Source: Saccharothrix syringae (GTDB lineage Bacteria > Actinomycetota > Actinomycetes > Mycobacteriales > Pseudonocardiaceae). From it: a DNA stretch of 64,000 nt. Positions 9,858 through 33,688 of this stretch are shown piece by piece. The stretch is from the NCBI RefSeq assembly GCF_009498035.1, contig NZ_CP034550.1, positions 3,162,001-3,226,000 of the forward strand. Direction: 5' to 3'. The position numbers and the translations under genes were made by a program. Numbering within the stretch: position 1 is the stretch's first letter; every line of letters begins with the position of its first letter. A model generated the notes under the pieces. That model ran no database searches. It was not told where the DNA came from and worked only from the letters and a program-made list of their open reading frames with translations.

Positions 9858-9877
9858 GGGCATCCCTCGTCTAACAG

Positions 9878-10194: not shown

Positions 10195-10239
10195 CTCAGA
10201 TAGAACAGGGGTGACCGGTGATGTCGAAGCGGATCAAGG

Positions 10240-10274: not shown

Positions 10275-10298
10275 TCGCTTTGTCGTGCGCCGATCGGC

Positions 10299-10715
10299 TT
10301 AGTCGCCTTCCCGTCGCGGTGTCGTCGTCTGCAGGCGGCGCAGCTCGGCGTAGACCTGTTCGAGCTGCCGTTGCTGCGCGGCGTTCTGCTCGGTGAGGAC
10401 CTGGACGCGGGCGCGGAGCTTCTCGTTCGCGCTCAGTGACGCCGCCAGGCGGACCTTGAGAGAGCGTTCAGTCGTGGCGGCGGATCGTGGTGCCGGTGGC
10501 CGTCGTCCTGTGAGCTCACGGAGCCCGGAGAGCAGGTCGGGCTGGGTGTAGAGCCATGACCTGGAGACCTCCGCGGCCGTGGCCAGCGCCGCGACCGTGA
10601 CCGGTCGCCCTGATATGCGCAGCTCCAGCAGGGCCTTCTCGGCCCGTTGACGGGCGTCGGCGCTGCGTTTGGCGGTGGCGGCGGCGAGGTGGTGGGTGTT
10701 GTCAGCTCGGGTCAT
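10299..10715 (-). CDS. DUF6262-type accessory protein of a recombinase trio
   Basis: The start is ATG 10715, overlapping the stop of the tyrosine recombinase by ATGA. The 138-residue protein begins MTRADNTHHLAAATAKRSAD and has an HTH-like segment, RPVTVAALATAAEVSRSWLY. It ends in a leucine/glutamine-rich coiled coil (LRARVQVLTEQNAAQQRQLEQ). This is the typical third gene (TnpC/DUF6262) of Tn554-like and RIT elements, where it sits after two tyrosine recombinases and aids transposition or target choice. The gene looks intact. Confidence 0.75.
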   Translation of the reverse strand: MTRADNTHHLAAATAKRSADARQRAEKALLELRISGRPVTVAALATAAEVSRSWLYTQPDLLSGLRELTGRRPPAPRSAATTERSLKVRLAASLSANEKLRARVQVLTEQNAAQQRQLEQVYAELRRLQTTTPRREGD

Positions 10716-12969
10716 CGAGTTGGATGATCTTTCCGCCGAAGACGACTTCGCCGTCGTCGCAGCTCTCGCAGGTGGTTGTCGAGGTTGTCCAGGATCTTGG
10801 TGTTCTTCTCGGCGATGCGGATGTGTCCGGCGGCCTTGGCGGTTTCGATGATCTTCAGGGTGCGGCCTCGCTGTTCCCGGTGGTGTGGCAGGAACTCGGG
10901 GGCGGTGAGGAACATCGGGCAGGTCAGGCAAGGGTTGGCGTGCTCGCAGTTGCGGATCAGCGGCAGACCGCAGTAGCCGTTGGGCAGGGTCTGCTTGGCC
11001 CGGCCGAGGCTGATGCGGGTCCAGGCGGCGTTGCTGAGCGGGTCGCTCTCGGTGACCCGGACGATCTCGCCCTGGGAGTTGACGGTGACGGCCTTCTCCC
11101 ACTTCTCCCGGACGGTCTTGTCGTGCAGGCGGGCGTAGACGGCGGTCATGGCCGGTGACATGTGGTCGAGCAGCTTCTGGACGACGTGTTGCGGGACGTC
11201 GTTGTTGATCAGGCGGGTGCCCAGGGTGTGCCTGAACTGGTGCGGGGTGATGTGGACGCGGTCGCCGAGTTCGTCGACCAGCTCGATGGTCGCCAGCCAG
11301 GTGTTGAGGTGCTCGACCCAGGTGCCGCGGGGCATCGGTTTGCGGCCGTGGGGGTTGTCGGTCCGGCGGGGAACAGCAGCTCGCAGCCTGCGGGGAAGCG
11401 TGCGCGGACCCGGTCCTGCTGGGCGTGGATCAGCGTGACGAGCTTGTCGACGATGGGGAAGAACGCGACGCGCCCCTGCCCTTTGTGGTTGACCCAGGCC
11501 AGGTAGGGGGCTCGCGCGTCGTCGCGGACGACGCAGTCGAACGGGAGCCGGATCGCGTCCTTGGACCGCAGCCCGCAGGCCATGACAATGCGCAGGACGA
11601 GCTCGTCCTGCGGGTCGGGGAACCTGGTCAGGTTGGCGTCGTCCTCGCACTGACTCATGATCACTTCGCTGAGGAAGCGGGGCTTGGACGGCGGCGCCGG
11701 CGGACCGTCGCCGGGGACGATGACCGCAGTGCGGGGCAGTCGTTCCTCCCAGCCCAGGCGGTGGACGGTGGAAAGGAACACGCTGACCGCGCTGATCCGG
11801 TGTTTGCGGGTGGCGACGTGGACCTGTTCCTCGTCCATCGAGGCGAACCACGCCTCCAGCAACTGTCGGGTCAACCGCTCGGGTTCGGTGCAGTCGTCGG
11901 GCCCGCCCGCGGCGAACTCGGCGAACTTGCCCAAGTAGCGCACTTGCGCGACCAGGCTGCCGGTGGCGCTCTTGGTGGTGATCATCCGCCGGGCCCAGCG
12001 CTTGGCCAGCGCCCGTAGCCAGGGCTGCGTAATCGAGGTGAATCGCAGGTAGCGGGGCGTGTTCTCCGGAAGGCGTCCCAGTCTGCGCAGGTCCCAGGTG
12101 TCGCGGTCGTATTCGCGTTCCCAGGCGCCGCCGGCGAGCAGGGCTTCGAGGTGGTAGCGGATGTCGGTGACGAAGGTCAGCGCGCTGTTGGTGCCCCGCT
12201 TGCCCGACGGGCCCTTGGCCTGCTTGCGCCAGGCGTCGTCGTCGAGGTCGAGCATGCTGGCGACCTGGCTTTCCCGGATCCAGGTCACAGCCTGCTGGAT
12301 CGCCCGCAGGCAGGTGCGGCGGTCACCGGCATCGGCGCGGCGTTGCAGCCCCAGGCCCAGCTCCAGCCGGATCTGCTGGGACAGGCCGCGCATGTCCAGC
12401 ATCGGCTCGCCGCGGCCGGTGGCGCAGGTGACGTAGGTCTGCAGGTCGTCGGGCTTGCCCGCCGTCTTCCAGCGGGCGTGGTGGCCCGCGCAGAACCCGG
12501 CCTTGAAGTCGGCGTTGCGCTCGCAGCCGACGAACCGGCAGGGCGCCTCCCCGCGAATCGACGGCGTGTAGGTGATCCCGGCCGCCCACGCGGCCGCGTC
12601 CGGTCGTCCCGCCTTGGCCCAGAAGCCGCGGTGCCGGGCGCAGAGGCCGATGTGCCCCCGTGCCCGGTTGCAGCCCTCGACCAGGCAAGCCGGGAAGCTC
12701 ACGGTGTTGCGTTGCCCCGGCCCCTGCAGCGGCGCCCACTGCTCGATGTCGGGGCTGCCCGCCCTGGTCCAGGCCGTCTGGTGGATCGGGCAGAGCCCGA
12801 CACGGCCGTAGTTCAGCGGGCGGCGGCAGGCCGGCACTCGGCATCGACCTGCGGTGAACACGGGGTCGTCGGGGTCCGGTCGGAACACCTCGACGCGGAA
12901 CTCCATGCGGACGGTCTGCAGCAGCAGCGCCAGCAGACCGGACCGGTGCGCGGGAACGGGGACCGTCAT
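10712..12969 (-). pseudogene. Tyrosine recombinase, second of trio, interrupted by a frameshift
   Basis: The N-terminal frame starts at ATG 12969 (overlapping the upstream recombinase stop) and the C-terminal frame ends at 10712. They meet near 11365, in a CCCC run following GAGCTGCTGTT. One extra C would restore reading from CELLFP into RRTDNPHGRKPMP. The joined product would be about 750 residues. Its N-terminus carries three cysteine/histidine clusters of the form Cx4C...Cx2H (CRVPAC...CPIH, CLVEGC...CARH, CRFVGC...CAGH). The catalytic domain has ACGLRSKDAIRL, HQFRHTLGTRL and LLDHMSPAMTAVY, which supply the R, H-x-x-R, H and Tyr residues. A C-terminal cluster (CGLPLIRNCEHANPCLTC) may bind metal. 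It could be a true defect, a sequencing slip or programmed shifting. Confidence 0.75.
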
Positions 12970-16730: not shown

Positions 16731-16999
16731 AATTTCTGGACACCTCTGACTGGAGCGACGGGAGTGATCGGCAAGGAGCGTTCGCTTATGGGGCGCACTC
16801 AACGGTGTTGCCACCGTTGACGGAGCTTCAAGGTGGCCCGTCGAGGCCGGTGGGGACAGAGTGCGCCTGGAAGGGTGCCGGCAGAGCTTCGCCGGTACAC
16901 GGCGGGTGGCATGGTTGCGCATCCGCTGAAGACACCGGACGACATGGATGAGACGTTGCTTGAGTTCGCGGCACCCTGCTCTGTCCTCGGTGCCTCTGC

Positions 17000-17854
17000 T
17001 CATTCTGGCAGGCGTTTCTGCTGTTCCTTCGCGTTCAGTGCCGGGAACGAAAGGCGTTCCCAGTTGTCGGAGGCATTCCAGCGCAGGTAGGTTTTCCCGG
17101 AGGTCGGGGTCATCCACAGGTGCGTGACGGCTCCGAGTTGCGGCGCGGTCGTTGGTAGTTCCTCGTCGTCGGCGACCAGCCATGCCACGCCGAAGGTCGC
17201 GCCGGTGAAGTCGACCACGAGGAAGAGGTGCTGCTCGCCAAGGCCGGTTCGTGCAAGTTTGTCGATCTTGCTGCGGAGTTGCCCGTGTTCGGTTGCGGCT
17301 TCGGCGTTCAGCCACTCCGGGATGGCGTCGGCGTGCGGTACGGCCCCGCCTCGTCCGCGAGGTGTGACGGTGACGGCGCCGGCGTGTCGTCCTGGTCGAT
17401 CGGGGTCGGTGGTGACATCGTTCGCGTGTCCCCAGATCTCAATGTCTTGGTCGCTCAGCCAGCGAAGTGCCGGAGAACTTTCCCGTACCGAATGGGGGAG
17501 CCACTGATCGGCTCTGGTGACGCCGTGGGCCTCGTGTACCTGGATGATTTCTTGGATGTGCTGGTCGAACTCCTTGATCCTGACTCGTTCGCCAACGCTC
17601 ACGTGCCACCAGAGGCTTGAGCCGGAAACTTTCCACCGGTAATTGCGCTTTTTGAGCAGCTTCCACAACTGTTGCTCGTCTTTGTCGACCAGCATGGTGA
17701 CTTCCATCGCTGCTTGCCGCCCGTCGGGGTAGTTCAGGATGGCGTCGACATGACCCGGCTCGATCTGCTCTCCTGTCGGGTCCACGTCGACCCCCAGTTC
17801 GGCCTTGACGAGCGCAAAGGCGAATTTCTCGTCGTCAGTCGGCTCTGCGCGCAC
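17000..17854 (-). CDS. Hypothetical protein, possible nuclease-fold N-terminus
   Basis: GTG 17854 has a near-consensus AGGAGGAG ribosome binding site, giving 284 residues. The N-terminal 75 residues include HVDAILNYPDGRQAAMEVTM, whose D...E-x-T spacing loosely recalls PD-(D/E)XK folds, but the lysine is replaced. The middle is rich in charged residues and RGRGGAVPHADAIPEWLN. The C-terminus ends in TPTSGKTYLRWNASDNWERL. I recognise no family. It is divergent from the membrane nuclease gene at 18038, with which it shares a 180-base promoter region. Confidence 0.55.
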   Translation of the reverse strand: MRAEPTDDEKFAFALVKAELGVDVDPTGEQIEPGHVDAILNYPDGRQAAMEVTMLVDKDEQQLWKLLKKRNYRWKVSGSSLWWHVSVGERVRIKEFDQHIQEIIQVHEAHGVTRADQWLPHSVRESSPALRWLSDQDIEIWGHANDVTTDPDRPGRHAGAVTVTPRGRGGAVPHADAIPEWLNAEAATEHGQLRSKIDKLARTGLGEQHLFLVVDFTGATFGVAWLVADDEELPTTAPQLGAVTHLWMTPTSGKTYLRWNASDNWERLSFPALNAKEQQKRLPE

Positions 17855-18037
17855 GTCTCCTCCTTCTTGTTTCTGCTTGTTCCTGTCTAGATCATAGATG
17901 GAGAACCCGGCTTATCGGAGACTGAGGTGAACACCTCTCGAGTCGTTCCATGGTATGGGGCACCGTGGCTCATCTATCGGCGGGTCGGCTGTAACGGAAC
18001 GCAGCCTCCTTGCGACAACGGCCGTGAGGAGGTCTTC

Positions 18038-19369
18038 ATGCGCGGGAAGCCACGATTATCGACCCCGTACTCGGCACTGCTGTGGCCGGCGGTCGGTGCG
18101 CTCGGACTCGGTGGCCTCGGCGTCGTCTGTTACGGACTCGCGCAGGCCGACGTGTTGCAGGCCGTGGCGGTGGGGTTGTTGGTCAGCTTGGCGGCGGCGT
18201 CGGTGGGGGCGCTGGTGGGGTTCGTGTTCGGCATCCCGCGTCGAGTGGAGAACTCGCCGGTCGCGGCGCAGCGGGTGTACGCGGGCAACACCAACCTGGA
18301 GCAGGTCTCCGACTGGATCGTCAAGATCATCATCGCGCTGGGTCTGATCGAGTTGAACAGCCTGGCCACCTGGTTCGGTCGGCTGAGTCGAACGCTGGGC
18401 GCGGCGCTGGGACCGGCCCCCGGCAGTACGGCGGTCGCCGCGGGGGCGATGGCGTTCTTCGCCCCCGCGGGTTTCCTGGTCGGCTACCTGTGGACGCGGA
18501 CGGCGTTCACCGAGGCGCTGGACGCCGGTGAGCGGGTGGTGCCGGTGGCCGCTTCGCTGACCAACGTGCAGGAGATCGTCACCCGCACGGTGCGGCAGGC
18601 CAGCTCCGACGTGGGGATGAGCGCGTTCGAGGACGGGTTGGACCACCGGGAGCCCGTGCACACCGCGCCACCGCACGAGGTGGCCAGCACCTCGGACCTG
18701 GTGGTGCTGTGGAGGGAGATCGAGGACGTCCTGGCCGGGCTGCTGTACCCGCTCGACGGTGCCGACCTGGCGCCGGAAGAGATCATGGAACTGCTTCAGC
18801 GACGAGGGGTGCTGGAGCCGCGGTTGGCCCAGGAGTTGTCCCACATCGCCGAGGCGGCGCGCCAAGCCGCGGCCGGGGGGCGGCCGGCCGAGGAGGACCG
18901 GACCGCCGTCCGCGTGCGGGGTGCGGCGGTCGTGGCCGAACTGGCCAAGCTGCGCCGGGTCGCCCCCCGGCTGTTCGAACGGCATGTCCTGCACACCTTG
19001 AGGGAGACCGCCAGAGCGGGCTGGCGAGTGCTCGCGGACCCGAGCTTCGACGGTGTGGGCGCGGACGCGATGGTCGCCGCGGGTGACAGGACCGTCGTGG
19101 TCGAGGTGAAGGTGCTGACGGGCCGGGTCGGTGGGCGGACGCGCGACCTGTTCGCCTGGTTGAACCGCCTTCCCCCGGACAAGCCCGTCCTGCTCGTACT
19201 GGCAGGCGACCGGTCGACCGCGCCCGACGTGCCGTCGAGGTACCGCCGGGGGGCGGTTCGCGTGCTCATGTGGGACGCGGAGGCGGACCACCTGGCCGAC
19301 GCCGTCGCCGAACTGCTGGCAGACCAGGACCCGGCCACTCTCCCGGCGTCCGGTCCTGCCGCTCCATGA
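18038..19369 (+). CDS. Membrane-anchored PD-(D/E)XK nuclease-like protein
   Basis: The start is ATG 18038 with GAGGAGG upstream (443 residues); the frame is open further 5' without support. The N-terminus has about four membrane segments: SALLWPAVGALGLGGLGVVC, AVGLLVSLAAASVGALVGFV, one following the conserved-looking NTNLEQVSDWIVKIIIALGL, and AMAFFAPAGFLVGYLW. A helical linker of about 170 residues follows. The C-terminal domain has the PD-(D/E)XK pattern D343-AMVAAGDRTVVV-E356-V-K358, with an AWLNRL helix behind it. This suggests a membrane-tethered DNase effector, possibly for phage defence by self-damage. The assignment rests on motif reading, not on a profile match. A strong terminator follows at 19452. 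Confidence 0.6.
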   Translation: MRGKPRLSTPYSALLWPAVGALGLGGLGVVCYGLAQADVLQAVAVGLLVSLAAASVGALVGFVFGIPRRVENSPVAAQRVYAGNTNLEQVSDWIVKIIIALGLIELNSLATWFGRLSRTLGAALGPAPGSTAVAAGAMAFFAPAGFLVGYLWTRTAFTEALDAGERVVPVAASLTNVQEIVTRTVRQASSDVGMSAFEDGLDHREPVHTAPPHEVASTSDLVVLWREIEDVLAGLLYPLDGADLAPEEIMELLQRRGVLEPRLAQELSHIAEAARQAAAGGRPAEEDRTAVRVRGAAVVAELAKLRRVAPRLFERHVLHTLRETARAGWRVLADPSFDGVGADAMVAAGDRTVVVEVKVLTGRVGGRTRDLFAWLNRLPPDKPVLLVLAGDRSTAPDVPSRYRRGAVRVLMWDAEADHLADAVAELLADQDPATLPASGPAAP

Positions 19370-19451
19370 GACGTGGACTTCGGGTCGACGTCCTTGCGGC
19401 CATGTCCCGGATCTGCCCTCAACAGCAGTGGCACGAGTGCCAAGTGCAGAA

Positions 19452-19479
19452 GGCCCCGCCACCTGGAGGTGGCGGGGCC
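19452..19479. terminator. Bidirectional terminator
   Basis: GGCCCCGCCACC and GGTGGCGGGGCC pair perfectly with a 4-base TGGA loop. It lies between the convergent membrane nuclease gene (plus) and the GlsB gene (minus). Confidence 0.75.
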
Positions 19480-19500
19480 GTTGGACGTTGTGGTCGGTGG

Positions 19501-19767
19501 TTACCTCACGCTGGTGCGGTGACGGCCCCCGGCGATGGCCTCCGCCACGCCGATGAGCAGCACCGAGGCGATCACGGCGATGATGAAGCCCAGCACGTTC
19601 AGCTCGAAGATGTCGCCCGTGCCGAGCAGGTTCGCGATGGTGCCGCCGATCACGGACCCGACCAGCCCCAGCAGCAGCGTCGCCACGATACCGAGGTTCT
19701 GCTTGCCGGGCTTGATCAGTCGGGCGAGCGCGCCGATGATCAACCCCGCGACGATGAACCCGATCAC
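19501..19767 (-). CDS. GlsB/YeaQ/YmgE-family stress membrane protein
   Basis: An 88-residue protein with three hydrophobic helices and the glycine-rich repeats of this family: MIGFIVAGLIIGALARLIKP, LGIVATLLLGLVGSVIGGTI and VLGFIIAVIASVLLIGVAEA. The family (also called transglycosylase-associated) is a small inner-membrane protein linked to general stress. Length and helix pattern are typical. The start ATG 19767 follows GGAGGGTGA. It appears unrelated to the Argonaute operon that begins 250 bases away in the opposite direction. Confidence 0.85.
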   Translation of the reverse strand: MIGFIVAGLIIGALARLIKPGKQNLGIVATLLLGLVGSVIGGTIANLLGTGDIFELNVLGFIIAVIASVLLIGVAEAIAGGRHRTSVR

Positions 19768-20020
19768 GTCACCCTCCTGGTGGTCGATGACCTTGCGCTG
19801 CTCGGCTACCCCACCGGATCACCGCTCAACCGCTCCTTCGTGGACCTCGCCGGTCATCAGCGTCCGCTTCGAGCGAAAAGTACCTTTCATGATTATGTGG
19901 TCTCGGTCCATTCCGGAACCGGCGACGCCGACAGGATGTCTCTGTCGCCGATGACATCGCTGCTGGACACGGGGCGTGTAGCGCGTGCGGATTCGCCGAG
20001 CGTCGTCGTAACCTCGGTTG

Positions 20021-22354
20021 ATGCGTAGCTCGGGTGATCGTCCACCCTCGGCGGCGAGTGCCGGCCGAGGGCCTGAGTTGGTGTTCAACTACCTCCCGAT
20101 CCGCTTCGACGGCGAGGCGTTCGAGGCCGGTGTCCTCCCTTACGAGTCGTCCGAGCAGTTGTCCGGGCTCAGGGATCGGCTCAAGTCCACGCACGTGGTC
20201 GTGCGCGACGGCGGGCGGATCGTCTGCGTCCCGCTCCTGCCGGGAGCCGAGTCGGTCGGAGAACGTTCGGTGATCGGCACGGCGGGGCCCGACCTGCGGG
20301 TCGCGACCCGTCTGGTCCACGCCCGGCTGGTGCGGGTGCTGACCGAGAAGTGGGACTACTTGCTGCGCGGGGAGGACCCCGTGCAGCTCATCTCCCGTCT
20401 CCCCGGACGCGACCTCCTGGAAGGAGCGCCGGGCGGGGGTGGTGCCGACGGGCTGCACGTCTACCCCGTGTACGAATTGGACGTCCGTCGTTGTGGACCG
20501 AACAGGTCGCCGGGGATCGTGGTCGGGTTGAAGGCCCGGCGCGAAATCGACTGGTCGGTCCGCGACCTCGTCGGCCTCGGTGTCGAGGTGAAGGGGCGCT
20601 ACGTCCTGGCCGAGTCGCCCACGTTCCGGTGCTGGCCGTCGCAGGACCCGACCGCGCGGCGGAAGCTGCTGGGGCAGGTGTCCGCGGTTTCCGGTGATCG
20701 CCTCGTGGTGCGCACGCGCGACGGCGTGGTGGAGGTCGACTCGGCGGAGACGTGGATCGAGCCGGACCAGGCGAACTTCGACCTGGTGCTGCGGACGCTC
20801 ACCGGGCAGGCGTACCCGCGAGTCGCCACGGTCCTGGAAGAGAAGATGTCCACCCTGATCAGTGCCGAGAACCGCCTGACCGACACCGCGCGCGTCGCCG
20901 AAGCGTTGGTCAAGCTGGGACCGTTGGACATCGCCCAAGGGGTGCGAGCCGTGATCGGCAGGCCTCTTCGGATAACGAACGGCGGGGGGAGGAAGATCCT
21001 CCGGCTGTCCGAACCGACGTTCGCGTTCGACCAGGGCGGCGACAAGACGCACCAGTGGCCGGATCACGGTCTGACCAGGTTCGGCCCCCTGGACTCGGTG
21101 TCCTTCAAGCCCAAGTCGCCGCACATCGCCGTGGTCGTGCCCAGCCGGTTCCGCAAGGTCGTCGAAAGCTTCACGGACAGCTTCCGCGACGGTGTCCGCG
21201 GTTCCAGCGCCTACCCCCAGGGCTTCGTGCGGAAGTTCCGGCTCACCGGCTGCACCTTCAGCTTCACCACCTTCGACGGGGACGTGCGAGACGCCACCGC
21301 GTACCGCCGGGCCTGCCGCCAAGCCCTCGAAGAGAACCGGCGGATCGACCTGGCGATGGTGGTCACCAGTGCCACGCAGGAGCACTTGACCGGCAATCAC
21401 AGTCCTTACCTGGTGTCGAAGTCGACGTTCATGGGGCAGGGAGTGCCGGTCCAGGAGTTCCAGGTGGAGAACATCACGAGCGGGAACATCGCCCACTTGC
21501 TCAGCACCATGGCGTTGGCCTGCTACGCGAAGTTGGGCGGAACACCGTTCGCCATCAACGTGCCGGGGCATTCCACGGTGCAGGAGCTGGTGTTCGGCAT
21601 CGGCAGCGCACACCTCGTCGAGGACCGAATGGGAGACCGCGAACGCTTCGTCGGCATCACCACGGTCTTCAGCTCCGACGGGCGCTACCTGGTGTCCAAC
21701 GCGTCCAGGGAGGCGACCTACGAGCAGTACCCGCGGGAACTGCTGGAGGCGTTGCGTGTCTGCATCACCGAGGTCGGGGAACGCAACGGCTGGCGCGCGG
21801 ACGACGTCATCAGGCTGATCTTCCACGTCTTCAAGCCCTTGAAGAACAGGGAGGTGCAGTCGATCAAGGAGTCGGTCGAGCGACTGGTCGAGGGCATGGC
21901 CGCGGATTACGCGCGCGTCGAGTTCGCCTTCGTGACCGTGAGCGAGCAGCACTCCTGGCTCGTCCTCGACCGGAACTCGGCGGGCATCGGGGAGGGGCCG
22001 CGCGGCAAGGGCAAGTTCGTGCCGGCACGCGGGTACGCAGTGCCCATCAGCCGTTATGAGCTGCTGGTGACGGTCAAGGGGCCCAGGGAGATGAAGAGCA
22101 ATCTCCAAGGAGCGCCGAGGCCGCTCCTGCTCAAGCTGCACCCGGAGTCGACTTTCGCCAACTTCGAGTACCTGGCCGAACAGGTCTTCCGGTTCACGGC
22201 CATGTCGTGGCGCCGCCCCTTCCCGAACACCAGCCCGGTCACCATCCTCTACTCCAGCCTCATCGCCGAACTGCTCGGCAGGCTGCGCCAGGTGACGAAC
22301 TGGAACTCCGACATCATCTTCACCAAGCTGAAGTGGAGCAGGTGGTTCCTGTGA
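20021..22354 (+). CDS. Long prokaryotic Argonaute with degenerate PIWI site
   Basis: The start is ATG 20021 (777 residues). The N-terminus ELVFNYLPIRFDGEAFEAGV matches the N-domain opening of long pAgos. GIVVGLKARREIDWSVRDLV lies in the linker/PAZ region. The MID domain carries the guide 5'-end pocket: Y463-LVS-K467 and PVQ478EF. The PIWI core begins at QELVFGIGSAHL. Here the first catalytic Asp of the DEDX tetrad is Gly528, and the later Asp region reads LIFHVFKPLK (from L599) without an acid. Target cleavage is therefore not expected, as in long-B pAgos. The gene overlaps a PD-(D/E)XK nuclease gene by GTGA, so the pAgo probably senses guide-matched DNA or RNA and triggers that nuclease. The guide and target type are unknown. 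Confidence 0.85.
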   Translation: MRSSGDRPPSAASAGRGPELVFNYLPIRFDGEAFEAGVLPYESSEQLSGLRDRLKSTHVVVRDGGRIVCVPLLPGAESVGERSVIGTAGPDLRVATRLVHARLVRVLTEKWDYLLRGEDPVQLISRLPGRDLLEGAPGGGGADGLHVYPVYELDVRRCGPNRSPGIVVGLKARREIDWSVRDLVGLGVEVKGRYVLAESPTFRCWPSQDPTARRKLLGQVSAVSGDRLVVRTRDGVVEVDSAETWIEPDQANFDLVLRTLTGQAYPRVATVLEEKMSTLISAENRLTDTARVAEALVKLGPLDIAQGVRAVIGRPLRITNGGGRKILRLSEPTFAFDQGGDKTHQWPDHGLTRFGPLDSVSFKPKSPHIAVVVPSRFRKVVESFTDSFRDGVRGSSAYPQGFVRKFRLTGCTFSFTTFDGDVRDATAYRRACRQALEENRRIDLAMVVTSATQEHLTGNHSPYLVSKSTFMGQGVPVQEFQVENITSGNIAHLLSTMALACYAKLGGTPFAINVPGHSTVQELVFGIGSAHLVEDRMGDRERFVGITTVFSSDGRYLVSNASREATYEQYPRELLEALRVCITEVGERNGWRADDVIRLIFHVFKPLKNREVQSIKESVERLVEGMAADYARVEFAFVTVSEQHSWLVLDRNSAGIGEGPRGKGKFVPARGYAVPISRYELLVTVKGPREMKSNLQGAPRPLLLKLHPESTFANFEYLAEQVFRFTAMSWRRPFPNTSPVTILYSSLIAELLGRLRQVTNWNSDIIFTKLKWSRWFL

Positions 22355-23628
22355 GCGCACCGGAACCCGACGCGGTGTCGGTGGCGATCGGCGGGCAGCT
22401 CGCCGCACTCCGCGCCCACGTGCAGCCTGCCAACCGCCCCGGGAACCTCGACGGGCTCTTCGCGCACCACGTCCTGCGCGGTGGAGCCGGGATCGAGTGG
22501 CGCGTCACCTCGGGAATCGACGAGTGGACGGGCGAAAACCCCCACCTGCTCGGCACGCCGGCTGGTCTGGCGGTGCTCGGCTACGCCGTGACGGACGACC
22601 CGTCCGCGGCCGGCCCGCACCGCACCACCATGGCGGAGGGGTTGCACAGGTTGACGGCCCGCAACCCGTTCCCCGGTGATCGCCTGAGCTTCATCTACGA
22701 CGTCCGCGTCCTGCTCGGCGTCCGCCTGGCCGCGGAAGCAGTCCGGGAGGAAGCCCCCGACTTCCCGGCGTGGCTGAGGCGGATGTTGGAGGACCCCCGT
22801 CTCGACCCGGTCGACGCGAGCCAGGACCTGCTGCTGCGACACGTGCTCGCCGACCTGACGGACACCCCGGTGGTCCTCGGTGACCCGAGCGCCGCCGAGG
22901 ACCACGAACTGGCCGTGCGGGTGTGGATGACCGACTCCGGCACCGCCGTGCTCGCGCACCCGGCCGAGCACGCCCACCTGCTGCGGGAACGCGCGGCGGG
23001 AGCACTGCTCCGAGCCGACCCCGGGGAACTCGACGCGCCGCGGGCGGCCTTGCTGCTGCACGTGGCGGAAACGGTGATCGGGGCCACCGCCTCGCGGTTG
23101 GTGCCCCGTCCGTCGCACGTCGGCGCGGTGCTCTCCCGCTTCGAAGCCGCGCTGCTCCGCTGGAGGTGGGACCGGGAGGGCGTGAAACACCCGATCCGGT
23201 GGAAGATCACCGCCGAACGAGAGGTCCAGGACATCCTCTGGATCATGCTGCGGCCCGTCTTCGACGACCTGGTCGACGAGGAAACCCTGCCCAAGATCGG
23301 TCACAGCAGCTACCGGGCGGACTTCGGGATCCCCGGCCTCGGGGTCCTGATCGAGGTGAAGTACGTCCGCCGCGCCGGTGAGTTCAAGGAAGTCGAGCAG
23401 CAGGTGATGGTCGACTCCGTGGCTTACCTCAAGGAGGTCGACCGGTACCGCGAACTCGTCGTGTTCATCTACGACGAATCGGCTTCCGTGGAGCACCACG
23501 ACCGGACGCGACGCGCCCTCCTGGAACTCCCCGGTGTCTCCGAGGTGATCATCGTTTCGCGGCCAGGCATGCTTCCGCTCCCGGAACGGGGAACCCGTCG
23601 CGGACGAGCGCGGTCCGCCTCTGGGTGA
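22351..23628 (+). CDS. PD-(D/E)XK nuclease associated with Argonaute
   Basis: GTG 22351 overlaps the pAgo stop (GTGA), giving 425 residues. Residues 1-290 are helical without a known domain. The C-terminal domain starts at TAEREVQDILWIMLRPVFDD and contains SYRADFGIPGLGVLIEVKYV. This supplies D324, E335 and K337, the classical D-x10-ExK arrangement of restriction-type nucleases. A further helix with VDSVAYLKEVDRYRELVVFI and a strand (VSEVIIVSRP) complete the fold. The N-terminal E in EREVQ may be the first acidic residue of the active site. Translational coupling implies a complex with the pAgo. Nuclease partners are known for inactive long-B pAgos, where activation degrades DNA and aborts infection. 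Confidence 0.8.
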   Translation: MSAPEPDAVSVAIGGQLAALRAHVQPANRPGNLDGLFAHHVLRGGAGIEWRVTSGIDEWTGENPHLLGTPAGLAVLGYAVTDDPSAAGPHRTTMAEGLHRLTARNPFPGDRLSFIYDVRVLLGVRLAAEAVREEAPDFPAWLRRMLEDPRLDPVDASQDLLLRHVLADLTDTPVVLGDPSAAEDHELAVRVWMTDSGTAVLAHPAEHAHLLRERAAGALLRADPGELDAPRAALLLHVAETVIGATASRLVPRPSHVGAVLSRFEAALLRWRWDREGVKHPIRWKITAEREVQDILWIMLRPVFDDLVDEETLPKIGHSSYRADFGIPGLGVLIEVKYVRRAGEFKEVEQQVMVDSVAYLKEVDRYRELVVFIYDESASVEHHDRTRRALLELPGVSEVIIVSRPGMLPLPERGTRRGRARSASG

Positions 23629-23816
23629 TCCGGCCAGGACAGTCGGTTCGCTCGTTGGACGTACCGGTCGCGACGAGCACGAGAACCTCGCGCTCCCGGT
23701 GCTGGGGAAGGGGTACGGGGGAGCTACGTCGAAGTGAGCACCGCGGTGGGACGCCGGTTACCCCGGAGGGCCCATAGCTTTCGCTCGTCCTGATCACCGA
23801 ACGGGCGGAGGACCTG

Positions 23817-24569
23817 ATGACCACGGCACGCAACCCGGGCTCACCGGTGACCGACATCGAAGGTGTCGTCCAGCTGTACACCCGGTACGAGCAGGCATTG
23901 CGGGTGGTGCGAGAGGAGCAGCGGGTCCTGCACGGACGCGGTGCGCGCGCCCAGCTCGACGACGTGGAGGCCGAGTTGACCTACCTGCTGATCCGGTCCA
24001 GGCGCCCGGCGTTCGTGGTGGAGATCGGTGCGCTGGACGGGTGGTCGACCAGTTGGATCCTCCGGGCCCTGCGGGACAACGGCACCGGTCGGCTGCTCAC
24101 CCTGGACCGCGTCGCGAACGCCGCCTCCCTGGTGCCGCCGGACCTCGCAGGTGACCGCTGGGAGTTCCGGGCCGGGGACGCGCGGGCGCTGCCGGCGGAC
24201 TGGGTGGCGGAAGCCGGGTACCTGTTCATCGACGCCGAGCACAGCGCCCGTTTCGCCCGCTGGTACCTGGCGGAGGTGCTGCCCCGGCTGGCGCCGGGTA
24301 CGGCGGTGAGCGTGCACGACGTGTTCCGCCGCTCCGCGTTCGGCCGCCCGCGTCCGTCGCGGGAGGGGAAGGTGGTGCTCGACTGGCTCGCCGCACGGGG
24401 GCTCGGCTGCTTCACCGCGGCGCCGTCGGCCGCGCCGGACGTGCACCAGAGGATCATGCAGTTGCGGGGCCGGTTCGGGTTGACCGATCCGATCCACCGC
24501 GGTGACCGCAACCCGATGATCTTCTTCCGGCTACCGGGCGGTGAAGGGCGGTTGCCTGCGGCAGGATGA
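23817..24569 (+). CDS. Class I SAM-dependent methyltransferase
   Basis: A 250-residue protein starts at ATG 23817, preceded by GGAGG. The SAM fold is clear: motif I FVVEIGALDGWSTSWILRAL, an acidic residue after strand 2 (LLTLDRV), GDARALPADW, and LFIDAEHSARFARWYLAEVL with the metal- or substrate-binding DAEHS. It matches the small-molecule O-methyltransferase-like group (Methyltransf_24/cephalosporin hydroxylase-like). The substrate is unknown. The histidine kinase frame downstream overlaps or abuts its end. I see no biosynthetic cluster around it. Confidence 0.75.
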   Translation: MTTARNPGSPVTDIEGVVQLYTRYEQALRVVREEQRVLHGRGARAQLDDVEAELTYLLIRSRRPAFVVEIGALDGWSTSWILRALRDNGTGRLLTLDRVANAASLVPPDLAGDRWEFRAGDARALPADWVAEAGYLFIDAEHSARFARWYLAEVLPRLAPGTAVSVHDVFRRSAFGRPRPSREGKVVLDWLAARGLGCFTAAPSAAPDVHQRIMQLRGRFGLTDPIHRGDRNPMIFFRLPGGEGRLPAAG

Positions 24570-24600
24570 CCTGGTCACGGCGAGCACGGGAGGGATCGGG

Positions 24601-25872
24601 GTGGGGGGCTCGGCGGAACACCTGCGCAGGGGTGTGGCACGGGTGACCAGGGCCCCGCTGGTGTTGGCGCGGGACCTGGGCCGGTGGCCCGTGGTCCGGT
24701 TGTCGCACCCGCCGGGTGCCTGGCCGTGGTGGTCACCGCACGTCGTGGTGTTTCTGGGGGCGGCGGTGTCCGGGGTCGCCGGCGGCGTGGCCGTGGGACA
24801 GGTGAGCTCGCTGGTCCTCGCGGTGTTCGTCGGTGTGCTGCAAGGTCTGCCGCTGGTGCTGTGCCTGTACCGACCGATGGCCGGGTTGTGGCTGTCGCTG
24901 GTGGTGTCCGTGCTGGTCAGCGAGCTGGTTCGGGATGGTGGGACGGCCCCGGTGTGGGCCGACTCGGCGGTACCGGCCCACTTGGGCGTACTCGGCCTGG
25001 CGGGGTGGCGCGCCGGTCCCCGGGTGCTGGTGGAGATGTGGGGGCTGACCCTCCTGGCCGGTGCGGTCCTGGCGCAGCGCACACCACCGGGCTACGACCA
25101 GCAGGACCTGGTCGAGATGGCCGTGCTGTCGGCCGCGGTGCTGATCGCGGTCGGCGCGTTGCGCGGTCTCGGGCAGGCCCGGCGGCGGCTGGTCGAGCAG
25201 GAGCGCCTGACCGCACGCGAGCAGGACCGGCGGGCCGTGCTGGAGGAACGCAGCCGCATCGCCCGTGAACTGCACGACGTGCTCGCCCACCACATGTCCG
25301 TGATCGCGATCCAGGCCGAGGCCGCACCGCACCGGGTCGCCGACCCGCCCGAACCGCTCACCGCCGGCTTCGCCCTCATCGGGGCCCACGCCCGGGACGC
25401 GCTGACCGAGTTGCGCCGCGTGCTTGGCGTGCTGCGGGCGGACGACGCCGAGGCGGAGCTGGCGCCGCAGCCGACCCTGCGTGACCTCCCGGGCCTCGCC
25501 GCGACCGCCCGCGACACCGGCTTGGACGTGACCACCGAGGTGACCGGCCGACCGCGGCCGCTGCCGCCGGGGGTGGAGGTGTCCGCGTACCGGATCGTCC
25601 AGGAGGCGCTCAACAACGCGATGCGGCACGCCCCCGGTTCACGGGTGCGGATCGAGGTGGACTACCGGCCCGGCGAACTGCGGCTGGCGGTGCGCAACGG
25701 ACCGGCGTCGACGGGGACCACGGTCTCCTCGATCGGCCGCGGTGGCAGTGGTCACGGGCTCCGCGGGATGCGCGAGCGGGTCGAGGTGCTGGGCGGTGAG
25801 CTGGAGGTCGGCGCGACCGGGGACGGCGGTCACCGGGTGACCGCGGTGCTCCCGCTGGAGGAGGAACGATGA
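24601..25872 (+). CDS. Two-component sensor histidine kinase (NarX/LiaS-type, HisKA_3)
   Basis: The start is GTG 24601, chosen for the GGGAGGG site 6 bases before it; GTG 24541 is also in frame but lies inside the previous gene. The 423-residue protein has an N-terminal membrane domain with several helices (VVVFLGAAVSGVAGGVAVGQ, VFVGVLQGLPLVLCLY, LWLSLVVSVLVSELV). A coiled linker leads to the dimerisation box ERSRIARELHDVLAHHMSVI with phospho-acceptor H225. The ATPase domain has EALNNAMRHAP (N box) and GHGLRGMRERVEVLGG (G2 box). It overlaps the response regulator gene by ATGA. The signal is not evident. Confidence 0.9.
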   Translation: MGGSAEHLRRGVARVTRAPLVLARDLGRWPVVRLSHPPGAWPWWSPHVVVFLGAAVSGVAGGVAVGQVSSLVLAVFVGVLQGLPLVLCLYRPMAGLWLSLVVSVLVSELVRDGGTAPVWADSAVPAHLGVLGLAGWRAGPRVLVEMWGLTLLAGAVLAQRTPPGYDQQDLVEMAVLSAAVLIAVGALRGLGQARRRLVEQERLTAREQDRRAVLEERSRIARELHDVLAHHMSVIAIQAEAAPHRVADPPEPLTAGFALIGAHARDALTELRRVLGVLRADDAEAELAPQPTLRDLPGLAATARDTGLDVTTEVTGRPRPLPPGVEVSAYRIVQEALNNAMRHAPGSRVRIEVDYRPGELRLAVRNGPASTGTTVSSIGRGGSGHGLRGMRERVEVLGGELEVGATGDGGHRVTAVLPLEEER

Positions 25873-26546
25873 CGACCATCCGGGTGCTGGTCGCCGACGA
25901 CCAGGCACTGGTGCGCGAAGGACTGGTGGTCCTGCTGGCCATCGACCCCGACATCGAGGTCATCGGCGAGGCGGCCGACGGCCACGACGCCGTCCGCCTC
26001 GCGGCCGAACTGCGCCCGGACGTGGTGCTCATGGACGTGCGGATGCCCGTCCTCGACGGGCTCGAAGCCACCCGGCGGATCATGGAGGCCCCGGCGAACG
26101 AGGGCACCGTACCCGCGAAGGTGCTGGTGCTGACCACCTATGACCTGGACGAGTACGTCTACCGGGCGTTGCGAGCCGGCGCCAGCGGCTTCCTGCTCAA
26201 GGACTCCCCGGCCACGACCCTGCGCCACGCCGTACGCGTGATCGCGGCCGGTGACGCCCTGCTCGCGCCCTCGGTCACCAGGCGCCTCATCACCGAGTTC
26301 GCCCAGCTCGGCACCCATCGGGTCCCGATCGGTGCCGCGCCGAACGGGCTGACCGAACGCGAGACCGAGGTGCTGGTCCTGATCGCCACCGGCCGGTCCA
26401 ACACCGAGATCGCCGAAACCCTGGTGCTCGCGGAACAGACCGTCAAGACGCACGTCAGCCGCATCCTGACCAAGCTCGGTCTCCGCGACCGCGCCCAGGC
26501 GGTCGTCTACGCCTACGAGACCGGGCTGGTCCGCCCGGCGCTGTGA
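25869..26546 (+). CDS. NarL/LuxR-family response regulator
   Basis: A 225-residue protein. The receiver domain has VLVADDQ, the phosphorylation site LMDVRMP (D56), a Thr at VLTTYD and Lys in FLLKDSP. A linker leads to a LuxR HTH, LTERETEVLVLIATGRSNTE followed by IAETLVLAEQTVKTHVSRIL. Length and motifs are complete. It is translationally coupled to the kinase upstream and is its obvious cognate partner. The most likely targets are its own operon or nearby transport genes, but no operator is visible. Confidence 0.92.
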   Translation: MTTIRVLVADDQALVREGLVVLLAIDPDIEVIGEAADGHDAVRLAAELRPDVVLMDVRMPVLDGLEATRRIMEAPANEGTVPAKVLVLTTYDLDEYVYRALRAGASGFLLKDSPATTLRHAVRVIAAGDALLAPSVTRRLITEFAQLGTHRVPIGAAPNGLTERETEVLVLIATGRSNTEIAETLVLAEQTVKTHVSRILTKLGLRDRAQAVVYAYETGLVRPAL

Positions 26547-26637
26547 GAAGCGGTCGGGTCCCGGTGGTGGGGAGCGCCTGCGGTGGAGACCGGTGTCCGG
26601 ACGGGGCGTACGCGGACGGCGCTGGTTGGTCGGCTGC

Positions 26638-28070: not shown

Positions 28071-29870
28071 ATGACCAGGTCTGCGCGCAAGCCCCGGACC
28101 GGGATCGACCGGCCTCGTGAGGCGGCCGGGGACGAAGTCGCGGTGGTCGTCGACTCACCGGAACGGCTGTGGAGCAGGAGTCGTTCCGGTCCCCGGGCGG
28201 TGCGGGGGTTCCACTTCCAGGATCTGGTCGGGGCGTGGCTGTGCGGTCGGGTGTTGACCGGGCAGTTGGCGGTGGACCGGATCGTGCCCGAGGAGTTCGA
28301 GGACCTCTCCTGCGAGGGCGCGCGGAAGTGGCAGGTGAAGTCCCGGCAGGAGAAGGTCGGCGACTTCACGGTCGCGAAGGTGGCCTCGTTCCTGCTGCAC
28401 ATGTTCCGGGCGCACGCGGCGCGGCGGGACGTGGCCGCCGAGGAGCACCGCCTGGCGCTCGTGCTGGAACGGCCGGTCGACGGCCACCGGTCCGCGGACT
28501 GGGGTATGACGTTGGGGGAGTGGCCCGACACCGACCCGTTGCGCCGGTCCCTGCTGGCCGAGCTGCACGTCCTCAAGGTGTCCGAGGCCGACATCGGGTC
28601 GATCTGCGACATCGTCTGCTTCTACGTGTTGCCGTGGCGGCAGGCGGCGGACGAGGTGCGCCGTGCTGTTGCCGACCGCTACCGGCTGCCGACGGCTGCG
28701 GCCGAATCGGTGGTGCTGGCGTTGCGCGATGTGATCGCCGGGTGCGTCGACACCAACGCCGCAGTCGACTGGTCGGACCGCGTCGGCGTGGACCGCACCG
28801 GAATCGAGTCGGTCGTCACCGATGCGGTTGCGCTGATCGATCTCGACGCGCTGGAGCAGGCGTTGACGTCGGGCGCCTGCGAGCCGGTCGACTTCGCCAC
28901 TCCCTGTCCGGTCCGGGCTTCTACGAGGGGCTGGACGTGCAGCCCGGGCACATCGTCGCGGGCCTGCCCGCGCCCCGTCCCCTGCTGACAGGCGATGTGG
29001 TGGACGCGATCGACCGAGGCGAGGCCGTGTTGGTTACCGGGCCGTCTGGGGTGGGCAAGTCCACGGTGATGTGGGCGGCGGCGTACGCGACCCGACATGC
29101 CGTGTGGTACCGCGTCCGGCGCCTCGGTGAGGCCGATGTGGAGGCGTTGGCCAGGCTGATCCTGGCAGCCCGGCCGTCGACCAGGACGCCGGTGGGGCTG
29201 GTCGTGGATGCCGTGGGGCAAGGGGCGGCGCAGGCGTGGGATTCGCTGCAACGCCGGTTGGCGGGCAAGCCGGGGACGGTGTTGCTCGGGTCGGTGCGCA
29301 GTGAAGACCTCGTGTCGCTGGAGACGTTGCCCGGTTGCACCGCCGTGGCCGTCTCCCTGGACGAAGAGGTCGCCGCGGAGATCCACAAAGGACTATTGGA
29401 CGCCGGTAAGACCACCGCGGTGCACTGGCGCGACGCCTACGAGCACGCGCACTGCCTCACGCTGGAGTTCACGCACCTGCTCACCCGCGGGCGCAGGCTG
29501 ACCGACGTGGTGGCCGAGCAGGTCCGCGCCCGTGCTCGCCACGGTCGAGAGACCGAGCTGCGCGTCCTGGCCTTGGCCTCCACTGCGCACCGTTGGGGGG
29601 CCACGCCGGAGCTGCGCGACGTGCAGCGTGCGTTGGAGCTCGCCGACGGCGACTACCGGATAGCGTTGACGCGACTGACCGACGAACACCTCCTGCGCAC
29701 CACCGCCGGGCGCCTGGACGGCCTGCACCAACTGCGTTCCCGGGAGCGGTCGCAGGCGGTGCACGATCAGCCGCCGCCCGCGCTCGCGGAAACCGTCGGC
29801 GCGGTCCTTCCCCTGCTGGCGACATCGGACGTCCTGCCGTTCGTCACGGGCGCGGCGACGGCGGTGCCGG
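28071..29870 (+). pseudogene. STAND-type NTPase with N-terminal nuclease domain, broken
   Basis: ATG 28071 has GGGAG upstream. Residues 45-115 contain AVRGFHFQDLVGAWLCGRVL, EEFEDL (D78) and W-Q88-V-K90, a Cap4/DUF4297-like PD-(D/E)XK signature as found at the N-terminus of Avs and related NTPases. A one-base loss near 28903 shifts the frame. The second frame continues SGPGFYEGLDVQPGHIVAGL and has the P-loop LVTGPSGVGKST, then the Walker B-like VGLVVDAVGQ. The sensor region that should follow is missing. At about 29870 the sequence changes abruptly into the reverse complement of a truncated chrA. It is a dead remnant of an anti-phage sensor. Confidence 0.65.
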
Positions 29871-31034
29871 AACTCGACGTAGAGGGCCAGGTTGGCGATC
29901 ACGCCGACGACGGCGGCGGTGATGCCGGTCAGGGTGGTGGAGACGGCCAGGTTGTGCCGCAGGCGCTCGATGTAGGAGGCGCCGAGCAGGATGAACAGGA
30001 AGCAGGGCACGAAGGTCACCCAGGTGGTCAGCAGTGCCCCGAGTACGCCGGCGCCCCATGGGTCGAGGGTGCCGGGGTGGTGGTAGGCGCCCAGGAACGC
30101 GACGAACTGCACCACCATGATCAGCGGTCCGGGGGTGGACTCGGCCAGCGCGAGGCCGCGCACCATGTCCCGGGCGGAGAGCCAGCCGTAGACCTCGACC
30201 GCGCGTTGGGCGACGTAGGCGAGCACGGCGTAGGCGCCGCCGAAGGTGACCACGGCGGTGCCGGAGAAGAACAGGCCCTGCTGGGTGAGCGTGCTGCCCG
30301 CACCGGTGGACAACGCCACCACGACCACCGGGGCGGCCCGGACGAGCAGGCCGACGCCGAGCACGGCCAGGGCGCGTCGTGCGGAGGGCTGCTCATGGTG
30401 CAGGGTGTCGTCGGGGATCAGCGGTGCCCGCTCGTCGGTGCCGGCCCTGCCGTGGCCGCCACCGGAGCCGGTGGTGGCCGGGGCGAAGCGCCCCAGCGCC
30501 CACCCGATCAGGGCCGCGGCGGCGATGACGACGGGGAAGGGGATCGCGAACAGCGCCAGGGCGGCGAACGCGGCGGCGGCGATTGCGACGAGCGCGGGGT
30601 GGTGCAGGGCCCGCTTGCCGACCCGGACCACGGCCTGGGCGACGATGGCGACCACCGCCGGCGCGAGTCCGGCGAAGACCGCGAGCACGGCGGTGGTGTC
30701 GCCGAAGGCCACGTAGATCGCCGAGAGCGCGAGCAGCGCCAGCATGCCGGGCAGCACGAACAGGCTGCCCGCGATCAGCCCGCCGCGCCGGCCGTTGAGC
30801 AGCCAGCCGACGTAGATGGCCAGTTGCTGGGCCTCCGGGCCGGGTAGCAGCATGCAGTAGTTCAGGGCGTGCAGGAACCCGCTGCTGGCCGATCCAGCGC
30901 TTCTCCTCGACCAGGGTGCGCTGCATGACCGCGATCTGGCCGACCGGGCCGCCGAAGGTCTGCAACGAGATCAGGAACCACGTCCAGGTCGCGGTGCGCA
31001 ACGGGATGACGTCCCGGTTCCTAATATCCGGCAT
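29871..31034 (-). pseudogene. chrA: Chromate transporter ChrA, frameshifted and 3'-truncated
   Basis: ATG 31034 has GGGGAGG upstream and gives MPDIRNRDVIPLRTATWTWF, then LQTFGGPVGQIAVMQRTLVE. An extra G near 30885 shifts the frame after EKRWIG. The second frame reads LLPGPEAQQLAIYVGWLLNG, the conserved ChrA signature, and a second half with TFGGAYAVLAYVAQRAVEVY and ALAESTPGPLIMVVQFVAFL. This is the two-domain, about 10-helix ChrA type that exports chromate. The C-terminus is lost after VIANLALY, exactly where the STAND remnant ends on the opposite strand. Confidence 0.8.
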
Positions 31035-31440: not shown

Positions 31441-31800
31441 ATGCACCACGATCCCAACCCGCAGCGGAACGACCTGAACCTGCGACGGAAGACCGAGCTC
31501 ACCGGCAGGATCGACGACTCGGCGGTGGTGTTGCCCGATGGCGCTGGCTCCGTCGAGGAGCAGGAGGATGATGTTGATCGTCTGCTCCACACCCCTGCTC
31601 AGGCGGCGCGGATCCTGGCCGTCCGGGAGTCGTGGTTGCGCCGAATGGCCAGCCGGCAGAACATCCCGTGCACTTTCGTCGGGAAGCATCTGCGCTTTTC
31701 GGGGGCCGACCTCCGTGCGATTGTGCAACGTGGCAGCCGTCCCGCACGGCAGCCTTCGGGGCATGCGCACGTGCGCTCGTTCAGGCGCCAGTGCCGCTGA
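31441..31800 (+). CDS. Excisionase (Xis), MerR-like HTH, for left integrative element
   Basis: ATG 31441 with GGAGG 7 bases upstream gives 119 residues. The C-terminal half is an excisionase HTH: LLHTPAQAARILAVRESWLR followed by NIPCTFVGKHLRFSGADLRA. The N-terminal 55 residues are acidic and lack a domain. Xis bends DNA at the attachment sites so the neighbouring integrase can excise the element. The same HTH, about 65 percent identical by eye, recurs beside the second integrase (37624-37833). It lies 90 bases before int and is probably co-transcribed. Confidence 0.8.
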   Translation: MHHDPNPQRNDLNLRRKTELTGRIDDSAVVLPDGAGSVEEQEDDVDRLLHTPAQAARILAVRESWLRRMASRQNIPCTFVGKHLRFSGADLRAIVQRGSRPARQPSGHAHVRSFRRQCR

Positions 31801-31891
31801 ACACATATCCGTTGCGCTCCTGCGGACATGGAGCGTCAATGTGTCCGTTCGCCCGCTTAGGGGCCGACATTCGAGAAAAGGAGCGGTTGCC

Positions 31892-32995
31892 ATGGCATGG
31901 GTCGAGAAACGCGGGGACGGTTTCCGGGTGCGGTACCGGCTGCCGGACGGGTCGCTGTTCACCGAGACGGGCTTCGCCACGCGCGAGCAGGCGGTCAACC
32001 GGGCCGCGGACGTGGAGTCGGACAAGCGCCGGGGGCAGTTCGTCGACCCCCGGCTGGCGCAGACCACGCTGGGGGAGTGGGTGCGCCAGTGGCTCGACGC
32101 GCACCACGTCAGCAGCGTCACCTGGAACACCTACAACTCACACCTGCGCAACCACATCCTGCCGCGCTTCGCGGAAACCGAGCTGGGCGACCTGTCCAGA
32201 ATGGTGATCAAGACCTGGGCGAAGACGCTGCGCCGGTCACTGGGTGAGCGCAGCGTGGCCGATGTGGTCGGGTTGCTGTCGATGATCCTGGGCGAGGCGG
32301 TCGACGAGGGTCTGATCGGGGCGAACCCGTGCCGGAAGCTCAGGCTCAACACCGGTGATCAACCCGAGCGGCCGCACGCCGACGCCGACGAAGTGGCCGC
32401 GCTGGCCGGCCGCGTCGCGGCCGACAACGCCGTCCTGATCGTCACAGCGGCGTACACGGGCCTGCGCTGGGGTGAACTGGCCGGGCTGCAGTGGGAACGG
32501 GTCGACACGGACAAGGGGGAGATCCGCGTCGACGCCAAGGACGGGGCCCTGCACGAGAACCGCGGCCGGCTGGAACTCGGGCCGCCCAAGACACCGGCCA
32601 GCGTCCGCACGGTGCACCTGCCCAAGTTCCTCGTCGAACTACTTACCGAGCTGCGCCGCCGCAAGCCGGGCGCCCGGTTCGTCTTCACCGGGATCGACGG
32701 CGGCCTGCACCGCCGCTCCAACTTCCGCCGCCGCGTCTGGGTACCGGCGCTGACAGGTGACGAGCAGCTGGATTGGCCGCCGATCAAGCCGGACATGCAC
32801 TTCCATGACCTACGTCACACGCACAAGACGTGGTTGATCGAGGACGGCGTGCCCGAGGTGTTGCAGCACAAGCGCATCGGCCACAAGTTCCGCGGCGTCA
32901 TGGGCGTCTACTCCCATGTCACGCAGCCGATGATCGACATCATGCTGTCCCGGCTCCAGGAGCGTTGGGAGCAGAACGGCCATGAGATCTGGTGA
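31892..32995 (+). CDS. Tyrosine integrase of pSAM2 type, left element
   Basis: ATG 31892 is preceded by AAAGGAG; the frame is open further upstream but belongs to no protein. The 367-residue enzyme has the N-terminal AP2-like arm domain (MAWVEKRGDGFRVRYRLPDG), a core-binding domain, and a catalytic domain with R in AYTGLRWGELAGL, H-x-x-R in FHDLRHTHKTWLI, H in RIGHKFRGVMG and Tyr in VYSHV. It appears intact. It ends 117 bases from the 3' end of tRNA-Val(CAC), the usual layout of actinomycete integrative elements that insert in tRNA 3' ends. It would catalyse integration and, with Xis, excision. Confidence 0.93.
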   Translation: MAWVEKRGDGFRVRYRLPDGSLFTETGFATREQAVNRAADVESDKRRGQFVDPRLAQTTLGEWVRQWLDAHHVSSVTWNTYNSHLRNHILPRFAETELGDLSRMVIKTWAKTLRRSLGERSVADVVGLLSMILGEAVDEGLIGANPCRKLRLNTGDQPERPHADADEVAALAGRVAADNAVLIVTAAYTGLRWGELAGLQWERVDTDKGEIRVDAKDGALHENRGRLELGPPKTPASVRTVHLPKFLVELLTELRRRKPGARFVFTGIDGGLHRRSNFRRRVWVPALTGDEQLDWPPIKPDMHFHDLRHTHKTWLIEDGVPEVLQHKRIGHKFRGVMGVYSHVTQPMIDIMLSRLQERWEQNGHEIW

Positions 32996-33048: not shown

Positions 33049-33111
33049 GGAACGGAAAACGGCCCGCAGACGATGATCGTCTACGAGCCGCTGACCTGGT
33101 AAAACATCCTG

Positions 33112-33183
33112 TGGGCGATACTGGGATCGAACCAGTGACCTCTTCGGTGTGAACGAAGCGCTCTCCCGCTGAGCTAATCGCCC
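33112..33183 (-). tRNA. tRNA-Val (anticodon CAC)
   Basis: A 72-nt cloverleaf on the minus strand. GGGCGAT pairs with ATCGCCC in the acceptor stem, the D-arm contains TTAGCTCAGCGGGAGAGC, and the anticodon arm is CTTCG-TTCACAC-CGAAG, giving CAC. The T-arm is ACTGG-TTCGATC-CCAGT. CCA is not encoded. Its 3' end faces the integrase gene ending at 32995, so it is the probable attB of the left element. Confidence 0.95.
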
Positions 33184-33234
33184 GTATTCGGTTTTCCGTC
33201 CCCCGCTCTCGCGGTGTGGTCATACCCTACAACA

Positions 33235-33663: not shown

Positions 33664-33688
33664 GCGCACATCATGAACCATCGCGCTC

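Follow-up and report, generated by a model that had tools for sequence, protein, structure and literature searches.

The 64,000-nucleotide stretch of Saccharothrix syringae DNA analysed here (the window, G000:C1:3162001-3226000 of a single-contig genome of 10.93 Mb) contains two overlapping genes, which encode a catalytically inactive prokaryotic Argonaute (pAgo) of the long-B type and a PD-(D/E)XK nuclease of the bAgaN family. Very probably, the pair represents a BPAN defence module, i.e. a long-B pAgo together with bAgaN, which would be RNA-guided, DNA-degrading and abortive in its action. The host is a soil actinobacterium of the family Pseudonocardiaceae. The positions of both open reading frames (ORFs) and of their GTGA overlap, as given in an initial annotation of the window, were borne out (Table 1), and G528, Y463, K467, Q478 and D324/E335/K337 were found at the residue numbers claimed. 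An alternative TTG start of the pAgo gene is located at 20018, one codon upstream of the ATG. Both ORFs show a third-position GC bias like that of the other genes chosen in the window (0.90; 0.84 when the longer open frame 22207-23628 is taken).

The system type as such is already known. It was described in 2023 by Song et al. for EcAgo/EcbAgaN of Escherichia coli (PMC10620215), it is the same type as orthogroup og_15 (PMC6299218), and it is also modelled in PADLOC 2.0.0. New in this analysis are a 3.7-kb cassette that two actinobacterial genera share at 97% identity although its flanks are unrelated, and the location of the pair in a putative island at a tRNA-Val gene. The window places an intact BPAN module in an actinobacterial branch, with a nuclease distant from the tested EcbAgaN.

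Guide pocket, dead PIWI site and intact nuclease motif

The pAgo is a full-length protein with the four domains N, PAZ, MID and PIWI. It scores 800 bits with the PADLOC model, its profile covers nearly the whole of EcAgo, and the solved structure of EcAgo/EcbAgaN (23wq) was found by sequence search. Compared as a whole protein, its fold is RsAgo-like; a shortened PAZ* domain is a further trait of long-B pAgos, on which this comparison of the overall fold bears only indirectly. RsAgo from Rhodobacter sphaeroides (5awh, 6d8a) likewise has a predicted nuclease encoded downstream; it differs from the pAgo of the window in sequence (approximately 32% identity), and the NCBIfam equivalog model NF052569 (ProtArgonAgoRhdb), which we take to represent RsAgo, reaches 427 bits and stays under its curated cutoff of 700 bits.

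The residues Y463, K467, Q478 and K504 of the MID domain, the last being the counterpart of RsAgo K506, as well as G528 and H602 are each invariant in all 36 aligned pAgos (the query and 35 of 45 other homologues, shorter pieces and one fusion being excluded). Retention of Y463, K467 and Q478 had been noted initially and thus extends to every aligned relative. The equivalence to the RsAgo pocket and the definition of the YK-type MID domain are given in PMC6299218, and the equivalence also emerges from our alignment. Judged from these residues, the pocket is of the canonical YK type for 5'-phosphate guides.

The catalytic tetrad of TtAgo (D478, E512, D546 and D660) served as reference for the PIWI domain. 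D478 is replaced by G528, E512 aligns with E568, and D660 aligns with S746. D546 itself falls into an alignment gap, and from the neighbouring column we infer that H602 takes its place. At the fourth position, 29 of the 36 pAgos have D and 3 have E, while the query has S; since this position is still acidic in most relatives, the family-wide losses are those of tetrad positions one and three. These substitutions agree with the proposed inactivation of the PIWI domain by loss of the first Asp and of a later acid, and an intact DEDX tetrad elsewhere in the protein was not evident.

The structure of the nuclease is predicted to consist of two parts with a weaker linker between them. The N-terminal part of 290 residues, for which the initial annotation could not name a domain, turned out to be the helical domain of the bAgaN family: PDLC02407 (Aga_Helical-REase) is the best nuclease model in PADLOC with 604 bits, and all three helical-REase models match. 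The query is also alignable over residues 69 to 408 with PDLC02404, the best model of an EcbAgaN-like protein. The suggestion of a new subtype is therefore not supported, and a new effector subtype was rejected in view of the matches to the three models and to the EcbAgaN structure. The C-terminal part matches Pfam DpnII-MboI with 130.6 bits (residues 256-405) and harbors a D-EVK motif formed by D324, E335, V336 and K337. The motif is complete, as had been claimed, and D, E and K are conserved in 53 of 53 aligned nucleases (the query and 52 of the 119 others listed; the search found 427). The conservation of these pocket, PIWI and nuclease residues is far beyond chance.

Table 1. Coordinates of the features discussed (window positions unless a locus is named)
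Feature	Position	Strand	Remarks
Long-B prokaryotic Argonaute, catalytically inactive	20021..22354	+	777 aa, ATG start
GTGA stop/start overlap of pAgo and bAgaN genes	22351..22354	+	
bAgaN nuclease gene	22351..23628	+	GTG start, 425 aa
MID 5'-phosphate pocket Y463/K467/Q478/K504	21407..21532	+	RsAgo Y463/K467/Q478/K506
Gly528 replacing first catalytic Asp (TtAgo D478)	21602..21604	+	TtAgo alignment; G in 36/36
His602 beside third catalytic Asp position (TtAgo D546)	21824..21826	+	H in 36/36
bAgaN N-terminal helical domain, residues 8-250, ~11 helices	22372..23100	+	alpha/alpha-toroid-like in model
bAgaN PD-(D/E)XK (DpnII-MboI-like) nuclease domain	23116..23565	+	
D324, E335, K337 codons	23320-23322, 23353-23355, 23359-23361	+	
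Tyrosine integrase	31538..32995	+	Pfam Phage_integrase 56.9 bits; ends beside tRNA-Val
Candidate att repeat (tRNA-Val 3' part + 19 bp), 68 bp	33092..33159	+	
tRNA-Val	33111-33183	minus	
97%-identical pair-only block	L069 (G172:C1:3289000-3308500) 8366-12088; L070 (G031:C8:47000-66500) 8899-12622		

Pairing and joint inheritance

A scan of genome contigs with patterns from relatives of this nuclease returned 17 loci. All 15 loci with a near-full-length bAgaN have a pAgo match directly upstream, which is split by a frame change in L025 and L031 and cut by the contig end in L033. Since the patterns came from relatives of the query, this pairing speaks only for its own nuclease family; within this family, the expected conserved pairing of the two genes was found, and the nuclease homologues do not occur mostly without a pAgo. 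L036 and L037, two short nuclease fragments outside the count of 15, showed no pAgo match in the DNA examined. A four-base RTGA overlap is usable as start in 14 of the 15 related loci, one Acidobacteriaceae locus being the exception, but this frequency is weaker evidence for coupling than it looks, since the overlap arises in part from a constant C-terminal Leu codon before the TGA. The frame changes in the pAgo genes of Nocardia amamiensis (L031, where the change falls on the GIG motif of the inactive catalytic site) and Phytohabitans maris (L025) represent either pseudogenes or assembly errors.

The pAgo and nuclease trees of 17 pairs agree closely (Mantel r 0.94, p 0.0001, 9,999 permutations; r 0.95 for the 13 closer pairs), which shows joint inheritance, not interaction as such. 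L025 and L031 (split pAgo), L033 (contig end) and the interrupted or truncated plasmid pairs of Roseomonas and Alicycliphilus were left out, as were G031 (the same genome as L026, Actinophytocola gossypii; identical over 13,191 bp) and G106 (whose identities match those of L027, Prauserella flavalba).

Among 200 genomes of the family, including the one studied here, four possess a full-length pAgo, and the same four possess an adjoining full-length nuclease; the remaining matches to pAgo or nuclease (5 genomes each) are partial or weak. At four loci of family genomes (L007-L010), the DpnII-MboI match was weak (29-34% identity) and no pAgo match was present within the 3.3 kb of the locus; these were handled as other nucleases. 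Across the phylum (396 genomes searched, the own one included), only one of the 395 other genomes has a bAgaN match, and this match is partial.

Six of eight plasmid nuclease records also have a pAgo match; the two others are Klebsiella records with matches of 90 residues. In Roseomonas gilardii, transposase genes are located between pAgo and nuclease. Plasmid pDP3 of Alicycliphilus denitrificans (L040) carries a full bAgaN gene at 3552-5239, but all that lies before it is a short gene corresponding to the C-terminal 145 residues of the pAgo. On plasmid pSA70-2 of Shewanella putrefaciens (L039), a second bAgaN-like nuclease domain (2846-3586) lies upstream of an EcAgo-like pAgo, which is followed by a full bAgaN downstream.

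Mode of action and alternative explanations

For EcBPAN, it has been described that RNA-guided recognition of single-stranded DNA by EcAgo activates EcbAgaN, leading to indiscriminate DNA degradation and abortive infection (PMC10620215). The pair in the window shares with EcAgo/EcbAgaN the order of the genes (pAgo upstream, nuclease downstream), the inactive long-B pAgo with an intact 5'-phosphate pocket and the two-domain nuclease with a D-E-x-K nuclease domain. Its architecture, its motifs and its inheritance as a single unit come from sequences and models of the pair and its relatives, and all functional steps are drawn from homology. By analogy to EcBPAN and RsAgo, the Argonaute would load short 5'-phosphorylated RNA guides from transcripts and would find matching single-stranded DNA of an invader, for instance where plasmid or phage replication exposes it. 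Once bound to guide and target, it would activate bAgaN, which might then cut invader and host DNA with no sequence preference, so that the infected cell would stop or die and the invader would be removed from the population by abortive infection. More tentatively, the helical N-terminal domain may receive the signal of the Argonaute or keep the nuclease inactive until then. The initial idea that an inactive long-B Argonaute senses guides and sets off a separate DNase is supported by the evidence from PADLOC, the search of PDB sequences, the fold, the pairing and the co-inheritance.

Several observations weigh against this assignment. The fourth tetrad position is S in the query and an acid in 32 of the 36 pAgos. 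Phmmer aligns only residues 261-409 of the query bAgaN, i.e. the nuclease domain, with EcbAgaN, and in the tree the query is set apart from the EcbAgaN-like protein of Shewanella by long branches. According to PMC10620215, EcAgo and EcbAgaN neither form a stable complex nor co-purify, and EcBPAN is triggered specifically by the CloDF13 origin. The family also includes genomes with a broken pAgo and no nuclease match (G190; fragments in others), and of the 12 plasmid records that match the pAgo, six gave no match to bAgaN. One of these six is from Leptolyngbya, whose pAgo has a Sir2-type (Aga_SIR2) neighbour and falls outside the BPAN pAgo group (81% support).

Conceivably, the Argonaute directs its partner nuclease to the invader, and the target molecule alone is degraded, without killing of the cell. 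Such targeted interference would fit RsAgo, which among the structures listed is closest in fold to the query Argonaute, whose DNA binding leads to silencing or degradation of plasmids (PMC10620215), and whose plasmid-directed effects were seen in a foreign host. However, according to the same source, genomic DNA is degraded and the cell killed in the only BPAN tested, and the absence of co-purification also speaks against nuclease delivery by the Argonaute, so that we regard targeted interference as unlikely. The actinobacterial branch might also use the same architecture with another trigger or outcome, for instance a phage replication intermediate as target or dormancy instead of death. The nuclease of the window, which belongs to this branch, is nearest to PDLC02407, in contrast to the EcbAgaN-like Shewanella protein with PDLC02404 as its best model, and the long branches between the two point in the same direction. 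However, all guide-pocket and nuclease motifs are kept, and there is no sign of another output in the sequence, which makes this variant quite improbable. A more specific proposal, according to which the actinobacterial helical domain would be a docking ring for the guide-target-bound Argonaute and would drive a higher-order assembly of the nuclease (the 23wq entry contains eight chains each of EcAgo and EcbAgaN), with a trigger and an output unlike those of EcBPAN, appears rather unlikely. A non-functional or decaying gene pair is highly improbable: there are interrupted or fragmentary relatives (L025, L031, L036, L037, G190 and G140) as well as transposase and gene fragments in the surroundings, but both ORFs are full length and every invariant motif is present.

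The BPAN assignment also distinguishes the pair from other Argonaute systems. BPAS (Sir2 effector) and BPAM (membrane effector) share the inactive long-B pAgo and the downstream effector gene, but the effector of the query is a PD-(D/E)XK nuclease. SPARDA (PMC12205087) combines RNA-guided DNA sensing with collateral nuclease activity, in which the query may resemble it by homology. However, SPARDA consists of a short pAgo and a DNase/RNase-APAZ partner, whereas the pAgo of the query has four domains, and Pfam and PADLOC scans gave no APAZ match for the query. PMC11096173, considered as a second BPAN report, was rejected, since its subject is ApsAB, a different Argonaute-like system. By title and beginning of abstract, the open-access literature yielded no further experimental study of a BPAN, a search that does not extend to subscription papers, preprints or any paper on 23wq, and the terms "actinobacteria" and "Streptomyces" are absent from the main text of PMC10620215. 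The distance between the actinobacterial nuclease and EcbAgaN allows the family to be compared in its guide choice, trigger and collateral cutting. Laboratory Streptomyces strains, together with their phages and plasmids, would be well suited to this.

Shared cassette, putative island and neighbouring genes

G172, from the genus of the window, and G031 have a block of approximately 3,725 bp in common, which is 97% identical; it begins some 160 bp upstream of the pAgo gene and stops within the part of the nuclease gene that encodes the C-terminal tail. Stretches of 19.5 kb were compared, which gave no further blastn match (E 1e-5), and the flanks are unrelated. Of 770 pAgo codons, 32 differ synonymously and 18 non-synonymously; for the nucleases, the figures are 23 and 20 of the 401 codons compared. 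A conserved third gene was not found in a mutual comparison, which also included the window, of 716 ORFs flanking 14 loci (L033, G172 and L026, the last being the same genome as L070, were excluded); the most widespread flanking ORF matched 3 other sources. The occurrence of the two-gene cassette at 97% identity in two genera suggests the pair to be the complete transferable unit, for which a third gene is not needed.

Within the genus (25 genomes each), neither 23800-26600 nor 16900-19800 has a shared neighbourhood among the matches listed, all of which are paralogue-level or short. The tRNA block 33090-36210 is present in 25 of 25 genomes. A copy of the candidate att repeat lies 96 kb upstream (G000:C1:3098633-3098700; 64 of 68 bases identical), and fragments resembling the repeat occur in several members of the genus. 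From this, we infer that the pair is located inside a putative island of approximately 96 kb at a tRNA-Val hot spot, to which the tyrosine integrase is likely to belong. Of seven flanks of the same tRNA from members of the genus, six contain sequence with similarity to the integrase end of the window (470 to 1,635 aligned bases), and the flank in G607 has none. The left copy of the candidate repeat is preceded by about 60 bp resembling the right end of such elements, so that tandem elements are possible; no relative of the integrase was detected in the 17 kb around this copy.

Upstream of the pair, there are two unnamed genes at 17000-17854 (minus strand) and 17927-19369 (plus strand). The product of the latter has apparent hydrophobic stretches and weak, sub-cutoff matches to a NERD nuclease (E 0.028) and Death_2 (E 0.0028), and no match in PADLOC. 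Three very long ORFs (1141, 2287 and 1105 aa) at 45152-60680 likewise have no match in PADLOC. On the island side, an ATPase with AAA_15 and AAA_21 matches, presumably AbiEii-like by family name, and an N6/N4 DNA-methylase-like gene (5842-7809 and 1909-3132) are possible further defence or modification genes. A fragmentary ATPase gene at 28071-30847, possibly a decayed defence gene, begins with an ORF (28071-28988), continues in another frame with nSTAND_NTPase5/AAA_16-like sequence (below the Pfam cutoffs) and runs into a chromate transporter gene on the opposite strand. Finally, the region 36131-37560 contains a second tRNA-Val and beside it a second relative of the integrase, which is approximately 60% identical to the first over 36352-37560, lies on the minus strand and has an apparently interrupted frame; this region is probably the edge of a second island.

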